From a bacterium (GTDB lineage Bacteria > Elusimicrobiota > Elusimicrobia > Elusimicrobiales > UBA9959), in the NCBI GenBank assembly GCA_021811185.1, contig JAJZPL010000005.1, positions 1 to 42,693 on the forward strand: a stretch of DNA of 42,693 nt. Direction: 5' to 3'. Numbering within the stretch: the first letter of the stretch is position 1; the number at the start of each line of letters is the position of its first letter. Under the pieces are notes generated by a model. It was not told where the DNA came from. It saw only the letters and a list, made by a program, of their open reading frames with translations, and did not search any database. Made by a program: the position numbers and the translations under genes. Positions 23,323 through 31,290 of this stretch are shown here, one piece after another.

Positions 23323-23329
23323 CTTTATA

Positions 23330-23359
23330 TTGCCCCGCCCCCCCCCCATTTAGTATCAT
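23330..23359 (+). promoter_or_regulatory. Candidate ppdK promoter with a C10 run in its spacer
   Basis: TTGCCC (23330-23335) and TATCAT (23354-23359) are 18 bases apart. The spacer contains ten consecutive C residues (23338-23347). Two small hairpins follow in the leader (23367-23380 and 23389-23402), then an AGGAG site before the ATG at 23430. The promoter match is only moderate. Confidence 0.4.
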
Positions 23360-23429
23360 AAAGGAAGCCCTCCAAAGGGCGCACAAGCCCCGCAACCGCG
23401 GGATAAATAGTCAACAGGAGCCAACAATT

Positions 23430-26225
23430 ATGTCCAAGACGGCTGTAAAATCCAAAGCTAAAGTGTCCAGTCCCGTTAAAATTTCCAAAAAAGTGACTTA
23501 TTTCTTCGGCGGCGGCAAGGCCGAAGGCAAAGCCTCCATGAAGAACCTGCTCGGCGGCAAGGGCGCGAACCTCGCCGAGATGGCCGGCCACCCCGACCTG
23601 CGCCTGCCCGTTCCCCCCGGTTTCACCCTTACGACCGAGATCTGCACCTACTACTGGGCCAACAAGCGCTCCTACCCGAAGGGCCTCACCCAGGACGTAG
23701 AGAAGAATTTGCGCAAGGTGGAAGAGATCACCGGCAAGAAGTTCGGCGACGTCAACAACCCTCTGCTCGTCTCCGTGCGCTCCGGCGCCCGCTCCTCCAT
23801 GCCGGGCATGATGGAGACCATCCTTAACGTCGGTCTCACCAGCGAGACCATCCCGGGCCTGATCAAGCTCACCAACAATCCCCGCTTCGTTTACGACTCC
23901 TACCGCCGCCTGATCATGATGTACTCCGACGTGGTTATGGAAAAGGCCGCCGGCATCGAACCCGCCGACGACAAGGGCATCCGCAAGCAGCTCGAGCGCA
24001 TCATGCACGACATGAAGACCCGCAAAGGCGCCAAGGCCGACACCGACCTGAACGCCGAAGACCTGAAGGAACTGGGCGTCCTGTTCCGGGCCAAGGTGAA
24101 AGAAGTGCTCGGCAAAGAATTCCCCGACAACCACATGGACCAGCTGTGGGGCTCCATCGGCGCCGTGTTCGCGTCCTGGATGGGCAAGCGCGCCGTTTCC
24201 TACCGCCGCATCGAGAAGATCCCCGCCGAGTGGGGCACGGCCGTTAACGTGCAGGCCATGGTGTTCGGCAACATGGGCGAGAACTCGTCCACCGGCGTGG
24301 GCTTCACCCGCAACCCCGGCACCGGCGAGAACGCCTTCTTCGGCGAGTTCCTCGAGAACGCCCAGGGCGAGGACGTGGTGGCCGGCATCCGCACCCCCCA
24401 CCCCATCAACGAATCCAGCCGCAACGAGCAGTCCAAGAACCTCAAGTCCCTGGAACAGCTCATGCCTTCGGCCTACAAAGAGCTCGCCGCCATCCGCGCC
24501 AAACTCGAGAAGCACTACCACGACATGCTCGACATCGAGTTCACCATCGAGAACGGCCGCCTGTGGATGCTCCAGTGCCGCGTCGGCAAGCGCAACGGCC
24601 TCGCCGCCGTGCGCATGGCCCTCGACATGCATAAGGAAAAACTGGCCACCAAGGAAGAGGCCGTAATGCGCGTTTCCCCCGACCAGCTCGACGAGCTGCT
24701 GCACCCCATCCTCGACCCCAAGATGGAACTCGCCACCAAGCCCCTCGGCAAAGGCCTGCCCGCGGGCCCCGGCGGCGCCGTCGGTATGATAGTTTTCACG
24801 GCCGAAGAAGCCGTTAAGTGGAAGAAGGAAGGCAAGAACGTCATCCTCGTCCGCGAAGAGACCAACCCCGAAGACGTCGAAGGCATGAGGGCGGCGGAAG
24901 CCATCCTCACCGCCCGCGGCGGCATGACCTCGCACGCGGCCCTCGTGGCCCGCGGCTGGGGCAAGTGCTGCGTGGTGGGCTGCGCCGACGTGAAGATCGA
25001 CCTGAAGGACAAGACCCTCAGCCTCGGCGGCGCGGTGCTCAAGGAAGGAGACTGGATCTCCCTCAACGGTTCCCGCGGCTTCGTCTATACCGGCAAGATG
25101 TCCCTGGTCGAGCCCGGCGAAGTTACGATGGCCATGCTCCAGGACTTCCTCAAGTTCTGCAATTCCATACGCGCGCTGAAAGTGTGGACCAACGCCGACA
25201 CCCCCTCCGATTCCGCCCAGGCCCGCCTGTACGGCGCCGAGGGCATCGGCCTTTTCCGCATCGAGCACATGTTCTACGGCAAAGGCTCCGACGCCGCGCT
25301 GTTCTGCCTGCGCAAGATGATCATGTCGAAGAACCTCGAGGAGCGCAAAGCCGCGCTCAACGACCTGTTCCCCTACATGAAGGCCAGCATCAAGGACACG
25401 CTTAAGGTGATGGAAGGCTTCCACGTGACCATCCGCCTGATGGATCCCCCCCTCCACGAGTTCGTGCCGCAGCAGAAAGCGAAGCTCGAAGAGCTGGGCA
25501 AAGCCCTGGGCATCTCCTACGAGGAGCTCTCGACCCGCGCCAACTCCCTCCACGAGTCCAACCCCATGATGGGCCACCGTGGCGTGCGCCTCGGCATCAC
25601 GTATCCCGAGATCACCGAGATGGAAGCCCGCGCCATCTTCGAGGCCGCCGCCGAACTGCAGAAGGACGGCATTAAGGTGTTCCCCGACATCATGATCCCC
25701 GTGGTCTCCCTCGAGAACGAGGTGAGGAACCAGTCCGAGATCATCCACCGCGTGTACGGCGAGGTAATGAAGCAGCACGGCGTGAAGGTAAAGTACATGG
25801 TCGGCACCATGATCGAGATACCCCGCGCCTGCCTGATGGCCGGCAAGCTCGCCGAGACCATGGAGTTCTTCTCCTTCGGCACCAACGACCTGACGCAGAT
25901 GACCTTCGGTTACTCCCGCGACGACTCCGGTCCCTTCCTGAACGACTACGTTAAGAAAGGCATCATCCCCGTGGACCCGTTCCAGACCATAGACCAGGAC
26001 GGCGTGGGCGAACTGATAAAGATCACCGTCGAGCGCGGCCGCAAGACCCGCAAAGACATGAAGATCGGTATCTGCGGCGAGCAGGGCGGCGAGCCGGCCT
26101 CGGTCGCTTTCTGCCACAAGGTGGGCCTGACCTACGTGTCCTGCTCCCCGTTCCGCGTGCCCATCGCGATCCTGTCCGCGGCCCAGTCCCAGATCAGGAA
26201 CCCGCGCAAGAACAAGGCCGCCTGA
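23430..26225 (+). CDS. ppdK: Pyruvate, phosphate dikinase
   Basis: Interconverts pyruvate + ATP + Pi with PEP + AMP + PPi; in anaerobes it often works in glycolysis. The 931-residue protein has the N-terminal nucleotide-binding domain (YFFGGGKAEGKASMKNLLGG then KGANLAEMAG), the phospho-histidine domain (ARGGMTSHAALVARGWGK, with the catalytic His) and the C-terminal PEP/pyruvate barrel (GTNDLTQMTFGYSRDD, GICGEQGGEP with the catalytic Cys, CSPFRVPIAIL). A short Lys/Ser-rich N-terminal extension precedes the domain. The C-ending codon preference is very strong, which suggests high expression. No regulatory kinase/phosphatase gene is adjacent. Confidence 0.97.
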   Translation: MSKTAVKSKAKVSSPVKISKKVTYFFGGGKAEGKASMKNLLGGKGANLAEMAGHPDLRLPVPPGFTLTTEICTYYWANKRSYPKGLTQDVEKNLRKVEEITGKKFGDVNNPLLVSVRSGARSSMPGMMETILNVGLTSETIPGLIKLTNNPRFVYDSYRRLIMMYSDVVMEKAAGIEPADDKGIRKQLERIMHDMKTRKGAKADTDLNAEDLKELGVLFRAKVKEVLGKEFPDNHMDQLWGSIGAVFASWMGKRAVSYRRIEKIPAEWGTAVNVQAMVFGNMGENSSTGVGFTRNPGTGENAFFGEFLENAQGEDVVAGIRTPHPINESSRNEQSKNLKSLEQLMPSAYKELAAIRAKLEKHYHDMLDIEFTIENGRLWMLQCRVGKRNGLAAVRMALDMHKEKLATKEEAVMRVSPDQLDELLHPILDPKMELATKPLGKGLPAGPGGAVGMIVFTAEEAVKWKKEGKNVILVREETNPEDVEGMRAAEAILTARGGMTSHAALVARGWGKCCVVGCADVKIDLKDKTLSLGGAVLKEGDWISLNGSRGFVYTGKMSLVEPGEVTMAMLQDFLKFCNSIRALKVWTNADTPSDSAQARLYGAEGIGLFRIEHMFYGKGSDAALFCLRKMIMSKNLEERKAALNDLFPYMKASIKDTLKVMEGFHVTIRLMDPPLHEFVPQQKAKLEELGKALGISYEELSTRANSLHESNPMMGHRGVRLGITYPEITEMEARAIFEAAAELQKDGIKVFPDIMIPVVSLENEVRNQSEIIHRVYGEVMKQHGVKVKYMVGTMIEIPRACLMAGKLAETMEFFSFGTNDLTQMTFGYSRDDSGPFLNDYVKKGIIPVDPFQTIDQDGVGELIKITVERGRKTRKDMKIGICGEQGGEPASVAFCHKVGLTYVSCSPFRVPIAILSAAQSQIRNPRKNKAA

Positions 26226-26265
26226 TGCGCATAGCGCCTGACGCGGCACAGCCATAGGCTAGTAA

Positions 26266-26917: not shown

Positions 26918-27241
26918 ATGGCGACCCAAGTTAAAATCGATACCGAAGCGGATCTTGAAAAGCTTATTTCGGATTACGGCCCGTCCAAGTACCTGGATAT
27001 CGTGCGCGCCATGCAGTGGGCCCGCCACCTGCGCCGCCAGGAAGAGTTCCGGAACATCCCCATGGCCGAACTGATCGACCGCTCGCTGTTCGACGTCGTC
27101 AGCGGCAAGGTCCAGGTGCCCGAGATCGAACTCGCCGTGAAGGCCGACCAGGAATTCGAAGAGAAGATGGCCTCCAAGCGCTCCGATGAGCCCCGGAAAC
27201 CCCGCAAGGAAGTCAGGGAAGAGAAGCCTTCCAAAGAATAG
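26918..27241 (+). CDS. rpoZ: Probable RNA polymerase omega subunit
   Basis: The 107-residue protein has the omega-like core KYLDIVRAMQWARHLRRQEE then PMAELIDRSLFDVVSGKVQV, where the family has a conserved helix with R-A-R-x-L and a K/R-x-x-x-x-A-L-x-E-I-x-x-G-K-I segment. The last ~25 residues are a charged Lys/Glu/Pro tail. Position directly after gmk is the classical place for rpoZ, and I rely on it for the name because the sequence match is moderate. A GGAGG site precedes the ATG. Confidence 0.65.
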   Translation: MATQVKIDTEADLEKLISDYGPSKYLDIVRAMQWARHLRRQEEFRNIPMAELIDRSLFDVVSGKVQVPEIELAVKADQEFEEKMASKRSDEPRKPRKEVREEKPSKE

Positions 27242-27245
27242 CTCA

Positions 27246-28037
27246 ATGAAGCGGGAGCTCGCTGCAGCAGCCAGGGACCTGGCGGCGTACATAAAGACGC
27301 TGGATGAAAATCTGGCCGAGTTCCCGCGCGGAGAAGCCGCGCCGCAGCCGAAAATAGCCGCGGCCGTTCACGCCGCCGAGAATCCGCTTCCCGCCCCGTC
27401 CTCCTCCGCCGGACCGGAAGCCCCGGACATGGCTTCCCTGTCAGAAACTGTCAAGAACTGCCGCAAGTGCCCGCTAGGCTACGCCAGGCTCAACGCCGTT
27501 TTCGGCGTGGGCTCGGACACGGCCCGCGTGGTCTTCGTAGGCGAAGGCCCCGGCTTCCAGGAAGACCACCAGGGCGAGCCCTTCGTGGGCCGCTCCGGCC
27601 AGTTGCTGGACAAGATCCTGGAGACCGTGCTGGGGCTCAAGCGCTCCGACGTTTACATCGCCAATATCGTGAAGTGCCACCCCATGAAGAACCCGGAAAC
27701 TCCGGAGGCCCACGGCAACGACCGCCCCCCTACGCCCGAAGAGATCTCCGCCTGCCGCCCGTACCTCGACGAGCAGCTGCGCGCCATAAAGCCCGCCTGT
27801 ATCGTAACGCTGGGCTCCGTGGCCACCAAGGTGCTGCTGGGCATGGACAAAGGCATTTCCGTCATGCGCGGCCAGTGGTACGATTACCCGGTGGAACTGT
27901 TCGGTCCCGGGCACCCGATAAAAGTTCTCCCCACCTACCACCCTGCGGCCCTGCTGCGGAACCCCAACCTTAAACGCGACACCTGGGAGGACATGAAAAT
28001 GCTGAAGTCTTTCCTCGAAAACGGTAAAATAGCTTAA
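27246..28037 (+). CDS. udg: Type-4 uracil-DNA glycosylase with [4Fe-4S] cluster
   Basis: Removes uracil from DNA. I start it at ATG 27246, 4 bases after rpoZ, giving 263 residues; an ATG at 27186 would lie inside rpoZ. After a low-complexity Ala/Pro N-terminal part comes the domain: the first two cluster cysteines in CRKCPLG, motif A GEGPGFQEDHQGEPFVG, NIVKCHPMKNP with the third cysteine, SACRPYLDEQL with the fourth, and motif YHPAALLRNP. The order gmk-rpoZ-udg-priA groups nucleotide supply, transcription and replication repair. Confidence 0.9.
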   Translation: MKRELAAAARDLAAYIKTLDENLAEFPRGEAAPQPKIAAAVHAAENPLPAPSSSAGPEAPDMASLSETVKNCRKCPLGYARLNAVFGVGSDTARVVFVGEGPGFQEDHQGEPFVGRSGQLLDKILETVLGLKRSDVYIANIVKCHPMKNPETPEAHGNDRPPTPEEISACRPYLDEQLRAIKPACIVTLGSVATKVLLGMDKGISVMRGQWYDYPVELFGPGHPIKVLPTYHPAALLRNPNLKRDTWEDMKMLKSFLENGKIA

Positions 28038-28088: not shown

Positions 28089-30065
28089 ATGCTGGCGGAA
28101 ATTTCATTCCCCATTCCTTTAAGAAGGACTTTCTATTACCACCTGCCGGAGGAGATGGAACTGCAGGCCGCCCCCGGCCTCCGGGCTCTTGCGTCCCTGG
28201 GTAAGCGCGAAGCCGTAGGCGTTATCCTGCGTGTGCTGCCCGAGAAGGACGCCGACCTTACCAGGTTCAAGGAACTTAAGTCCGTGCTCCGCCTGCTCGA
28301 CGAAAACCCGCTTTTCCCAGAGGACGCGCCGGCCTTGGCGGCCTGGATGTCCGGGCGCTGGGGCTCTCCCGCCGGTCTTTGCCTGGGGGCCTTCTACGCG
28401 CACGCCCCGGCCGACTTGCCGGCCCCGGCCGAACTGCCGCCGGGCCTCCCCGCGCCGGCTCCGGCCCTGCCGGCGCTGAAAGCCTTCCTGGACGAGCTGG
28501 CCGAGGGCAAGTCCGCGGACTTCCTGCTGCGCCTGGCGCCGGTGGAGCGCCGCGAGGACATCTATCCCGCGGTCTTCGCCGCCGCGCTGGGGCAGGGCGG
28601 CGCTCAGGGCCTGCTGCTGGTGCCGGACCTCAGCTTCATCCCGGCGCTGGCCGCCGCGCTGGAACCGGTTTTCCCCGGCCGTGTCGGAGTCTGGCACGCC
28701 AGGCTTACGCCCAAGAAAAGGGCCGAGGCCTGGGCCGGGGCTTACGGCGGCAAGTACCGGGTCGTTATCGCCACCCGCACAGGCGTCTTCCTTCCTTTCA
28801 AAAACCTGAAGCTGGGCCTGCTGGACGAAGAGCATGAAGAGATCTACAAACAGGAGGAGGCCGAACCCGCTTACCATGCGCGGGAAGTCCTGCTCAGGCG
28901 CATGGGAGCGCTGGGCGGCATGACGGTGCTGGCCAGCCCCTGCCCTTCCATAGAATCCTGGGGCGCGGCCGCCGCGGGCCGGCTGAAACGCTTCGACGCC
29001 GTCGGCGCCGCGCCCGCGAAAGGCCCCGGGCCCGACGTTCGCGTCCTGGACATGGCCGCCTATCCCGGCGATATCCTTGCCAGGCCTCTGGCCGACAGCC
29101 TGCGCGCCGCGGTGGCCGCCGGCGGGCAGGCGCTGATCATCGCCGGGCGCAAGGGCTACGCGTCCCGGCTGTTCTGCGCCAACTGCGGCTGGATGCCGCG
29201 CTGCCCGGAGTGCGGGCCGGGCCTTACGCTTTTAAAGACCGGCGCGGGCAAGGAGCCCGTGCTGCTCTGCCGGCGCTGCGGCAAGAAGGAACCCAAGCCC
29301 GTCAACTGTCCTAAATGCAACGGCAAGGTGTTCAGAGAGTACGGCGCCGGCACGCAGAAGACCCAGGAGGCGCTGGCGAAGCTGATGCCCGCCGCGAAAA
29401 TAGTCCGCTTCGACGGCGACGTGCTGCGCGGCCCGCTTAAAGCTATGAAGGAATCCCTCGATAGTTTCTCCAGGGGCGAAGCCGACGTGCTTGTCGGCAC
29501 GCGCATCGCCCTGCGCGAGCTCGGCGCCCCGAGGCTTTCCCTGGTGGCCTTCCTCGACCCGGACTCCGACCTCTCCGGCGCTGATTTCCGCGCCTCGGAA
29601 AGGTCTTTCCAGTCCTTCTACGGGGCCTCGCGGCTGCTGGGCTCCAAAGGCGAGCTGTTCATCCAGACCCGCGAGAGTTCGCACTTCGTTTTCTCGCGGC
29701 TGTCCGATATGGACTATCCCTCCTTCGCCGACGGAGAACTGGAGGCGCGCCGGGATTTCTTCTACCCCCCTTTCTGCCACATCATCAAAGCCCGCTTCGC
29801 CTCCTACGACCGGCGGGCCATGGAAGCCGCCGGCTCGGCTTTCCTGCGCGCGACGGATTTCCTCGGCGCGGACGGCGACAAGAGCGAGGTGCTCGGCCCC
29901 GTGACCCCTCCCGGGCAGGAGAAGCACAAGTTCTTCAGCGAATATTATTTGGTAAAGGCCGCCACCGAAAAGGCCGCCATGCGCTGCATGGAAAAAGCCG
30001 CGGCCCTGCCCGGGCGGCCGGGGGTCAAGGTCTTCCTGGAAGCCGACCCGTATGGGCTGCGGTAG
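28089..30065 (+). CDS. priA: PriA-like primosomal protein with degenerate helicase motifs
   Basis: PriA recognises stalled forks and reloads the replisome. The 658-residue protein has the N-terminal 3'-DNA-binding part (EISFPIPLRRTFYYHLPEEM) and the winged-helix region. The position of Walker A (normally GVTGSGKTEVY) reads LAPVERREDIY near 147-157, with no GKT. The DEEH box (LLDEEHEEIYKQEE, near 244) is kept. All eight zinc cysteines remain as four CxxC pairs (CANC, CPEC, CRRC, CPKC, about 361-420). Motif V is GTRIALRELGAP instead of GTQMIAKGHDFP, and motif VI is YGASRLLGSK instead of QVAGRAGR. It is therefore probably a non-helicase loader. No clear ribosome-binding site precedes the ATG. 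Confidence 0.88.
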   Translation: MLAEISFPIPLRRTFYYHLPEEMELQAAPGLRALASLGKREAVGVILRVLPEKDADLTRFKELKSVLRLLDENPLFPEDAPALAAWMSGRWGSPAGLCLGAFYAHAPADLPAPAELPPGLPAPAPALPALKAFLDELAEGKSADFLLRLAPVERREDIYPAVFAAALGQGGAQGLLLVPDLSFIPALAAALEPVFPGRVGVWHARLTPKKRAEAWAGAYGGKYRVVIATRTGVFLPFKNLKLGLLDEEHEEIYKQEEAEPAYHAREVLLRRMGALGGMTVLASPCPSIESWGAAAAGRLKRFDAVGAAPAKGPGPDVRVLDMAAYPGDILARPLADSLRAAVAAGGQALIIAGRKGYASRLFCANCGWMPRCPECGPGLTLLKTGAGKEPVLLCRRCGKKEPKPVNCPKCNGKVFREYGAGTQKTQEALAKLMPAAKIVRFDGDVLRGPLKAMKESLDSFSRGEADVLVGTRIALRELGAPRLSLVAFLDPDSDLSGADFRASERSFQSFYGASRLLGSKGELFIQTRESSHFVFSRLSDMDYPSFADGELEARRDFFYPPFCHIIKARFASYDRRAMEAAGSAFLRATDFLGADGDKSEVLGPVTPPGQEKHKFFSEYYLVKAATEKAAMRCMEKAAALPGRPGVKVFLEADPYGLR

Positions 30066-30117: not shown

Positions 30118-31290
30118 ATGAACAACGAAGAAATACTGAAAGATATCCTCAGGGGCGCGGTGGACGTGGTAAGCCGCGAAGACCTGGCTAAAAAGCTTTC
30201 CTCCGGCAAGAAGCTCCGCGTCAAATTCGGCGTGGACCCCACCAGCCGCGACCTGCACCTCGGCCACAGCGTCGTTCTCCGGAAGCTCCGCCAGTTCCAG
30301 GACCTCGGCCATACCGCCGTGCTGATCATAGGCGACTTCACCGCCCAGGTAGGCGACCCGTCCGGCAAAGATTCCACCCGGCCCGTGCTCGACCACGAGA
30401 CCGTGGAGAACAACGCGAAGACTTACGTCGAGCAGGCCTTCAAGGTGCTGGACAGGGACCGGACCGAGATCCGGTTCAACACCGAATGGCTCAAGCCGTT
30501 CCTCTCCAACCCGGCCGCCGGGGTTTCCGAATTCATCAATACCGCCAAGAACGTCACGGTCTCCCGCCTGCTCGAGCGCGAGGATTTCCGGAGCCGCATG
30601 AAGGCGGAGACGCCCGTCAGCCTGCTCGAGATGTTCTACCCGGTTTTCCAGGGCTACGATTCGGTGGCCGTGAAGGCCGACATCGAGCTCGGCGGCAGGG
30701 ACCAGATCTTCAACCTGCTGATGGGGCGCGACCTGCAGAAACTGAACGCCCAGGAGCCGCAGGTGGTGCTGACCATGCCCCTGCTGGTCGGCACCGACGG
30801 CGAAAAGAAGATGTCCAAGTCCTACGGCAACTACGTGGCCTTCAACGACCTGCCCAACGATATGTTCGGCAAGCTGATGTCGATCTCCGACGCGCTGATG
30901 TACTCCTATTACGAGTTGCTGACGGGCGAGGACCTGGCGGCCGTAAAGGCCGGGCACCCGATGGAAGCCAAGAAAAAGCTCGCCGGCCTCCTGACCGCCC
31001 GTTTCCACGGCGAGGAGCAGGGCCTGGCCGCACGCGCGCATTTCGAACAGGTCTTCTCCCGGAAAGAGCTGCCCGGGGATATGGAAGTTTACCGCGTAGA
31101 AAAGGCCGGCAAGCTTTCGTACCTGATGGTGGCCTGCGGGGTGGCTAAGGGCATGAACGAAGCCCGCCGGCTGATAGAGCAGGGCGCCGTGCGCCTGGGC
31201 GGCGAGAAGGTCGCCGAGGATATAGTGTTCGAGCCCAAGGACTGCGTGCTGCAGGTAGGGCGCCGGCAGTTCCGGAAACTTGAAAAATAA
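30118..31290 (+). CDS. tyrS: Tyrosyl-tRNA synthetase
   Basis: The 390-residue class I synthetase begins KFGVDPTSRDLHLGHSVVLR (HIGH-type motif near residue 44-47) and has the KMSKS loop in GEKKMSKSYGN near 230. A tRNA-binding S4 domain closes the protein (VAKGMNEARRLIEQGAVRLG). Length and motifs fit the TyrZ-like bacterial subgroup. No T-box leader can exist because the gene has practically no leader. Confidence 0.95.
   Translation: MNNEEILKDILRGAVDVVSREDLAKKLSSGKKLRVKFGVDPTSRDLHLGHSVVLRKLRQFQDLGHTAVLIIGDFTAQVGDPSGKDSTRPVLDHETVENNAKTYVEQAFKVLDRDRTEIRFNTEWLKPFLSNPAAGVSEFINTAKNVTVSRLLEREDFRSRMKAETPVSLLEMFYPVFQGYDSVAVKADIELGGRDQIFNLLMGRDLQKLNAQEPQVVLTMPLLVGTDGEKKMSKSYGNYVAFNDLPNDMFGKLMSISDALMYSYYELLTGEDLAAVKAGHPMEAKKKLAGLLTARFHGEEQGLAARAHFEQVFSRKELPGDMEVYRVEKAGKLSYLMVACGVAKGMNEARRLIEQGAVRLGGEKVAEDIVFEPKDCVLQVGRRQFRKLEK

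Follow-up and report, generated by a model that had tools for sequence, protein, structure and literature searches.

A PriA homologue with a degenerate helicase motor and a conserved DNA-binding scaffold in an order of Elusimicrobiota

Introduction

The locus described here raises the question of whether a gene that carries the PriA name always codes for a helicase and, if it does not, what its product may be doing. According to the passages on these points in PMC4504706 (Lopper et al. 2015), the helicase motifs of PriA are conserved in most bacteria, the helicase activity of E. coli PriA is not strictly needed for viability, and ATPase-deficient E. coli PriA mutants (K230) are reported to keep primosome assembly. 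The window, that is, the whole stretch of 42,693 nucleotides analysed in this work, is one contig (C15) of a 3.09-Mb Elusimicrobiota genome assembled in 79 contigs, with 94% completeness and 5% contamination. A first-pass annotation had described in it a PriA homologue deprived of its helicase motor and still provided with its zinc and DNA-binding parts, and had proposed that this protein lost its motor independently and acts as a platform for replisome loading.

Results

The priA gene and its locus

The priA open reading frame (28089-30065, forward strand) runs without interruption from ATG to stop and codes for 658 amino acids, including the four CxxC pairs (eight cysteines) that had been reported for it. 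The protein was assigned to the family by its score of about 304 bits against the TIGR00595 priA model (cut-off 230.35), its best fold matches are PriA proteins and, judged by its motifs, it is a motor-dead PriA, or pseudohelicase. The gene order around it is gmk, a small ORF, udg, priA, tyrS and fecR. Profile matches identified udg (27186-28037, forward strand), directly upstream of priA, as a family-4 uracil-DNA glycosylase gene, which occurs in the same order in most sampled loci, and tyrS (30118-31290, forward strand) as a tyrosyl-tRNA synthetase gene.

The small ORF between gmk and udg (26918-27241) encodes 107 amino acids and occupies a place where rpoZ (omega) might be expected. A Pfam search at E 0.01 gave no match for it, and sequences matching it turn up repeatedly in related loci. 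A 976-aa open frame (23325-26255, reverse strand) lies antisense to a pyruvate phosphate dikinase gene and has the look of a high-G+C by-product, not of a gene.

The first-pass annotation had advised looking for a second, intact priA. None was found by profile search of the 94%-complete genome, in which the weaker matches were Mfd and RecG, and a further copy could have been missed because of this degree of completeness. No rRNA was found in the same genome. A priA match was present in 59 of 61 genomes (own included), with an internal stop in none of the listed matches, and the two genomes lacking it are drafts from the same genus, 74% and 63% complete (2 of the 31 same-genus genomes). The best reading is that the window gene is vertically inherited and is the single priA of its genome.

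Motor motifs of the window protein

The replaced motifs read as they had been quoted. The former Walker A loop is LAPVERREDIY (residues 149-159; 28533-28565, forward strand), as established by alignment, predicted structure and motif count; in the counts given below, GK[ST] at this position is scored as Walker A. Sequence and alignment located the former motif V, GTRIALRELGAP, at residues 470-481 (29496-29531, forward strand), and the former motif VI, YGASRLLGSK, from which the GRxGR arginines are gone, at residues 511-520 (29619-29648, forward strand). In the alignment with E. coli PriA, K230 corresponds to R155 and T231 to E156, an arginine thus replacing the catalytic lysine. The DEEH box (residues 246-249; 28824-28835, forward strand; alignment and motif count) is retained in the window, and D246 and E248 are invariant in ten aligned sequences.

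An intact G-K-T placed elsewhere in the protein had been named in the first-pass annotation as a refutation, and neither the predicted structure nor a motif scan revealed one. No GxxxxGK[ST] was found anywhere in the full protein, and its sole GK[ST], at residues 140-142, is not a P-loop, as it sits after helix 128-139 and before strand 143-148 in the predicted model. In this model the P-loop position corresponds to the loop that joins strand 143-148 to helix 155-166, and this loop is replaced in the window PriA. With helicase motifs I, V and VI, those of ATPase activity and translocation, all lost, the protein is a PriA homologue and, judged by its sequence, not a PriA helicase.

DNA-binding parts, zinc module and predicted fold

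The 3' DNA-binding domain (residues 5-101; 28101-28391, forward strand) was recognised by Pfam PF17764 with 60.1 bits (cut-off 22.7). The cysteine-rich region (residues 363-410; 29175-29318, forward strand) carries the eight zinc cysteines, Cys 363, 366, 372, 375, 394, 397, 407 and 410, which are invariant in 19 sequences, and the C-terminal domain (about residues 531-658; 29679-30062, forward strand) was delimited from the predicted fold and from alignment along a solved PriA, with a boundary of our own choice. As in E. coli PriA, the 3' DNA-binding domain, the lobes, the cysteine-rich region and the C-terminal domain follow one another in the same order. The AlphaFold model, built with 33 sequences, shows a full-length fold (mean pLDDT 87, pTM 0.86). 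In a Foldseek search with this predicted model the nine best PDB matches were all PriA, with TM values of 0.69-0.81 by query length; among these nine is 6dcr, a winged-helix deletion of E. coli PriA (TMt 0.80 and 0.85).

The winged helix present in E. coli PriA was not recognised in the model and alignment of the window PriA, and the intact Elusimicrobiota PriAs, unlike E. coli PriA, are also without it. The stretch flanked by E. coli positions 105 and 198 comprises 93 residues in E. coli PriA, winged helix included; its family medians are 19-28 in intact Elusimicrobiota families, and the median in the genus of the window is 23. Since intact relatives lack it as well, the winged helix has no role as a defining feature in this phylum, and its absence was ruled out as a part of the motor loss.

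Distribution of the motor loss

The same-genus set consisted of 30 rows, the window and 29 loci from 29 other genomes. The Walker A signature GK[ST] was found in none of the 30 PriAs, motif V in 0/29 and motif VI in 0/29. The earlier description of an intact DEEH box holds for the window and does not extend to its genus, where DEE[HQDE] occurs in 1/30 rows (the window alone) and DGEH is the norm (21/30). Eight cysteines are present in 29/30 rows, the exception being a short ORF (L034) that ends inside the zinc region. Sequencing error, which the first-pass annotation had named as a possible refutation, and a chimeric gene were ruled out, as all 29 other members of the same-genus set, each from a genome of its own, share the Walker A loss.

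The analysis was extended to the order, represented by families f1 and f2 (82 rows). Walker A was kept in 27/81 rows, DEE[HQDE] in 10/81 and motif V, scored with a rough pattern of our own making, in 11/79. GRxxR at motif VI was found in 7/79 rows, all from group f2.g7, which keeps it in 7 of its 8 rows, with the Q absent in the rows displayed. None of the 78 order PriAs readable at all four motifs kept all four; a partial row of f2.g18 (587 aa), readable for motifs I and II alone, has both intact. Eight cysteines were found in 80/82 order rows, the exceptions being L034 and L159. In L159 (f2.g16, genome G158), whose motor is lost, an alignment gap covers the positions of four zinc cysteines out of eight.

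Outside the order, all four motifs were found in 39/39 rows from 17 sampled families of the phylum. Nine of these rows (9/9 intact) represent nine further families of the class, and the remaining 30 (30/30 intact), of which 21 belong to f13, come from eight families elsewhere in the phylum. A PriA fragment from f12, a tenth family of the order's own class, is intact where it can be read. Four families outside the class of the window, f18, f20, f21 and f22, have PriAs degenerate in all four motifs (0/8 intact; loci L156, L160, L153, L157, L162, L182, L183 and L184), with the cysteines kept in 7/8. Motor degeneration was also read in a genome assembled as a single contig of 1,643,562 bases (G045), in whose PriA (L054) Walker A reads FAPPKTGKKSIL and DEEH is lacking.

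The intact sample was skewed towards high scorers, with 29 of the 30 phylum rows coming from the 30 best-scoring loci and 8 of the 9 class rows hand-picked from the list. For this reason 27 further genomes were read, many of them low-scoring or from unseen families. Among the 25 of these outside the order, 11, one of them from f16, have a full-length PriA gene with all four motifs intact. Fragments in G169, G202, G207, G211 and G244, one of which represents the class family f12, are intact at every readable motif; at one of these loci (L232) the frame extends beyond the gene and the motif VI column is noise. The other nine (G175, G176, G178, G253, G110, G146, G153, G157 and G163) gave weak matches only, to ORFs of about 700-1070 aa that were taken by their length for RecG and Mfd, with no recognisable PriA. 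Of the two further order genomes, G235 contains a degenerate fragment and G254 weak matches only. Judged by these motif counts, motor loss is a lineage trait of the group to which the window belongs.

Order and number of the losses

Several groups of the order retain part of the motor. Motifs I, II and V are present without VI in f1.g5 (2/2), and II and V without I in f1.g3 and f1.g10 (5/5); in f2.g8 GK[ST] is mostly kept (16/18) without DEEH or motif VI, and in f2.g17 GKS, DEEQ and a motif VI remnant persist. The simplest reading, inferred from the sampled sequences, is that motif VI would have eroded in the ancestor of the order with motifs I, II and V still present, and that Walker A would then have been lost several times.

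The number of losses was approached with DnaB as a stand-in for descent, in a tree that covers 30 genomes out of the 33 in which DnaB was matched, f18 being included and f20 absent. The order was held together (100/100), f21/f22 were grouped with mostly intact families and f18 (93/91), and a single clade of the order with f18, f21 and f22 was rejected (lnL 46.8 lower, p-AU 0.0017). A quickly built PriA tree of 70 selected rows brought all degenerate families together (support 93), contrary to multiple losses. This grouping was taken for long-branch attraction, since the degenerate families are split both in the DnaB tree and in a PriA tree of 30 rows from which the longest branches, f18 and f20, were left out. 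In the latter tree the order branches with f8 and f10, two intact families of its class (99*), and f21/f22 are grouped (89) with f4, f11, f13, f15, f17, f19, f23 and f25, all intact; one clade of f21/f22 with intact f13, f17, f19, f23 and f25 rows was not rejected (p-AU 0.43).

On the DnaB test, and on the PriA tree of 30 rows from which f18 and f20 were omitted, a single ancient motor loss is considered unlikely. As DnaB rejects a single origin, at least two motor losses in the phylum are likely, and there were probably at least two by this marker, the count for f18 and f20 being set aside. The independent loss proposed in the first-pass annotation therefore finds support inside the phylum, where the class is intact in 9/9 families and the f12 fragment and DnaB rejects a single origin with f18, f21 and f22.

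The order udg-priA was found at 21/21 f13 loci, 5/9 class rows, 3/3 f21/f22, 2/3 f20 and 0/2 f18 loci, its absences being uninformative because many loci have short flanks. As this order occurs beside both intact and dead PriA, most of the dead PriAs appear to be orthologous genes still at their ancestral place, and not imports.

Selection on the dead lobes

Nei-Gojobori dN/dS analysis was carried out with the window and 28 genus members (29 sequences), using the 324 of 406 pairs with pS under 0.6; the ratios are medians of regional dN over whole-gene dS, with region boundaries set by us. Median values were 0.13 for the 3' DNA-binding domain, 0.51 for the linker, 0.20 for lobe 1, 0.20 and 0.13 for lobe 2, 0.20 for the cysteine-rich region, 0.19 for the C-terminal domain and 0.19 for the whole gene, with 0.16 in the former Walker A stretch and 0.15 in the motif VI stretch. 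Saturation of synonymous sites is fairly high (mean pS 0.55) and the boundaries are author-set, so that it is the comparison between regions that is meaningful and not the absolute values. Comparison of the motor with the zinc region had been suggested in the first-pass annotation, and a faster decay of the motor was not found among the 29 sequences: the lobes (0.20, 0.20 and 0.13) do not evolve faster than the zinc region (0.20). The dead lobes are constrained as tightly as the zinc module, which points to a working scaffold and not to a decaying motor. Purifying selection indicates that the protein matters and says nothing on which function is selected.

Replication partners

One copy of DnaB is present in the own genome, and DnaB was matched in 33 of the 35 genomes searched, with no match in G043 and G088, both with degenerate PriA. 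DciA was matched in 33/35 genomes at E <= 0.001, 31 of them above the cut-off; the own genome reached 22.1 bits, just below the Pfam cut-off of 24, and the same-genus G014 reached 30.9. There was no DciA match in G045 and G097 among these 35, and the matches of G000 and G152 lie below the cut-off; these four are degenerate-PriA genomes. DciA over the cut-off is therefore absent in 4/21 degenerate-PriA genomes versus 0/14 intact ones, small numbers from mostly draft genomes, in which G118 was counted as intact by score alone and G164 as degenerate by family, its gene being cut by a contig end. Perhaps the loader has diverged in degenerate-PriA genomes.

PriC was found in 0/35 genomes of the phylum and, among 14 control genomes, was matched in E. 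coli alone; with PriC in none of the 35, a PriC route is no evident alternative. A UvrD-family helicase is encoded in 35/35 genomes, including all 14 counted as PriA-intact (13 read, G118 by score), and this general presence gives no sign of UvrD-type compensation for the motor loss.

Discussion

The window PriA is probably an ATP-independent platform that recognises forks and loads DnaB, with unwinding left undone or carried out by another helicase; the parts that perform fork binding and DnaB binding in E. coli and D. radiodurans PriA are kept here, which argues for this reading. For the window protein itself, we infer the loss of ATPase activity, the binding of forks and the loading of DnaB from its motifs and from analogy with these PriAs. 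The two RecA-like lobes, without ATP use as suggested by the motifs, would persist as a folded scaffold and, together with the 3' DNA-binding domain, the zinc module and the C-terminal domain, would grip an abandoned fork or D-loop. The fork-bound PriA would then recruit DnaB, perhaps with a DciA-type loader, and the lagging-strand arm would not be unwound by PriA itself. In the E. coli PriA/PriB/fork structure, as described in passages of PMC10175261, lagging-strand single-stranded DNA passes through a pore formed by the cysteine-rich region, lobe 2 and the C-terminal domain, and fork binding exposes the PriB docking site.

It is highly improbable that the diverged site, for example R155 in place of the Walker lysine together with DEEH, still uses ATP, making the protein a weak or non-canonical helicase. 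The window keeps DEEH, D246 and E248 are invariant in ten sequences, and a loop still connects strand 143-148 with helix 155-166 in the model, all of which would fit such an activity. However, the genus-mates mostly carry DGEH (21/30), the Walker A signature has disappeared along with the arginines of motif VI, and K230R alone abolishes the ATPase and helicase of E. coli PriA, as stated in PMC4504706 where that mutant is treated. We also consider it improbable that priA is decaying or has been co-opted outside restart, for example to serve the adjacent uracil-DNA glycosylase as a zinc-dependent partner. The adjoining family-4 udg gene and the variable degree of motor-motif loss within the order are consistent with this possibility. 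Against it stand the priA matches in 59/61 genomes, with no internal stop among those listed, the overall dN/dS of 0.19, and the searches for another PriA in the own genome and for PriC, both of which found none. Moreover, the udg-priA order also stands beside intact PriAs (21/21 in f13) and is not tied to motor loss.

That another helicase, of UvrD/PcrA type or RecG, supplies lagging-strand unwinding in trans is a rather doubtful proposal, although one compatible with a loading platform. UvrD-family genes occur in 35/35 genomes and RecG and Mfd in the own genome, but the UvrD family is also present in all 14 intact-PriA genomes, so that its presence alone indicates no specific compensation.

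Beyond the platform reading itself, a wider scheme may tentatively be put forward. The motor would have been shed at least twice and, within the order, motif VI first and Walker A several times; the dead lobes, kept by selection, might serve as an ATP-free clamp on the fork and pass DnaB on, either directly or with DciA, and the intermediates that keep GKT without DEEH or motif VI might be nucleotide-responsive switches and not motors. If this scheme is true, the phylum would be a natural series separating the purpose of the PriA helicase from the purpose of PriA. With intact, partly eroded and fully motor-dead PriAs in one phylum, mostly behind the same neighbour gene and probably produced by at least two separate losses, the purpose of the helicase becomes testable by comparing relatives instead of making mutants, and a gene annotated as PriA helicase may not be a helicase.

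PriA proteins of actinobacteria, such as the mycobacterial ones, are not known to carry the ATPase motifs. The window PriA scored 344.8 bits with the best NCBIfam PRK05580 model versus 128.9 bits with the best model of PRK14873, which we take to be the actinobacterial PriA set. Passages on PriA in PMC3290774, PMC5720831, PMC5694481 and PMC9825169 do not state the actinobacterial motif loss. A search of the open-licence literature found no paper that has, by its title, an Elusimicrobiota PriA protein as its subject, subscription papers being mostly outside this coverage.

The closest case found in print is the PriA of D. radiodurans, which, according to the passages of PMC4504706 devoted to it, has no measurable ATPase and negligible unwinding, binds DnaB, and in its binding of single-stranded and fork DNA differs from E. 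coli PriA by no more than about twofold (fork binding 108.5 nM versus 52.1 nM for the E. coli protein). As in that protein, as far as these passages describe it, the Walker A lysine has become an arginine in the window PriA (R155) and the DNA-binding parts are kept, and in both cases the loss spans a phylum-level group. The substituted lysine and the conservation of the protein in its lineage, two traits of the D. radiodurans type, are found here (GK[ST] in 0/30; dN/dS 0.19), and the best reading of the sequence and of the analogy is that the window PriA would be the same in kind as this pseudohelicase. The activity of D. radiodurans PriA was measured, whereas the Elusimicrobiota PriA is described here by its sequence and predicted fold. 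Compared with the account of D. radiodurans PriA in those passages, the phylum is another one, the replacement in the window PriA extends to most of the P-loop and to motifs V and VI, and the order holds intermediates with Walker A and without an intact motif VI. A PriA pseudohelicase has been known since 2015 from D. radiodurans; what looks new, within the literature searched, is its occurrence in this phylum, together with the repetition of the loss and the graded intermediates.
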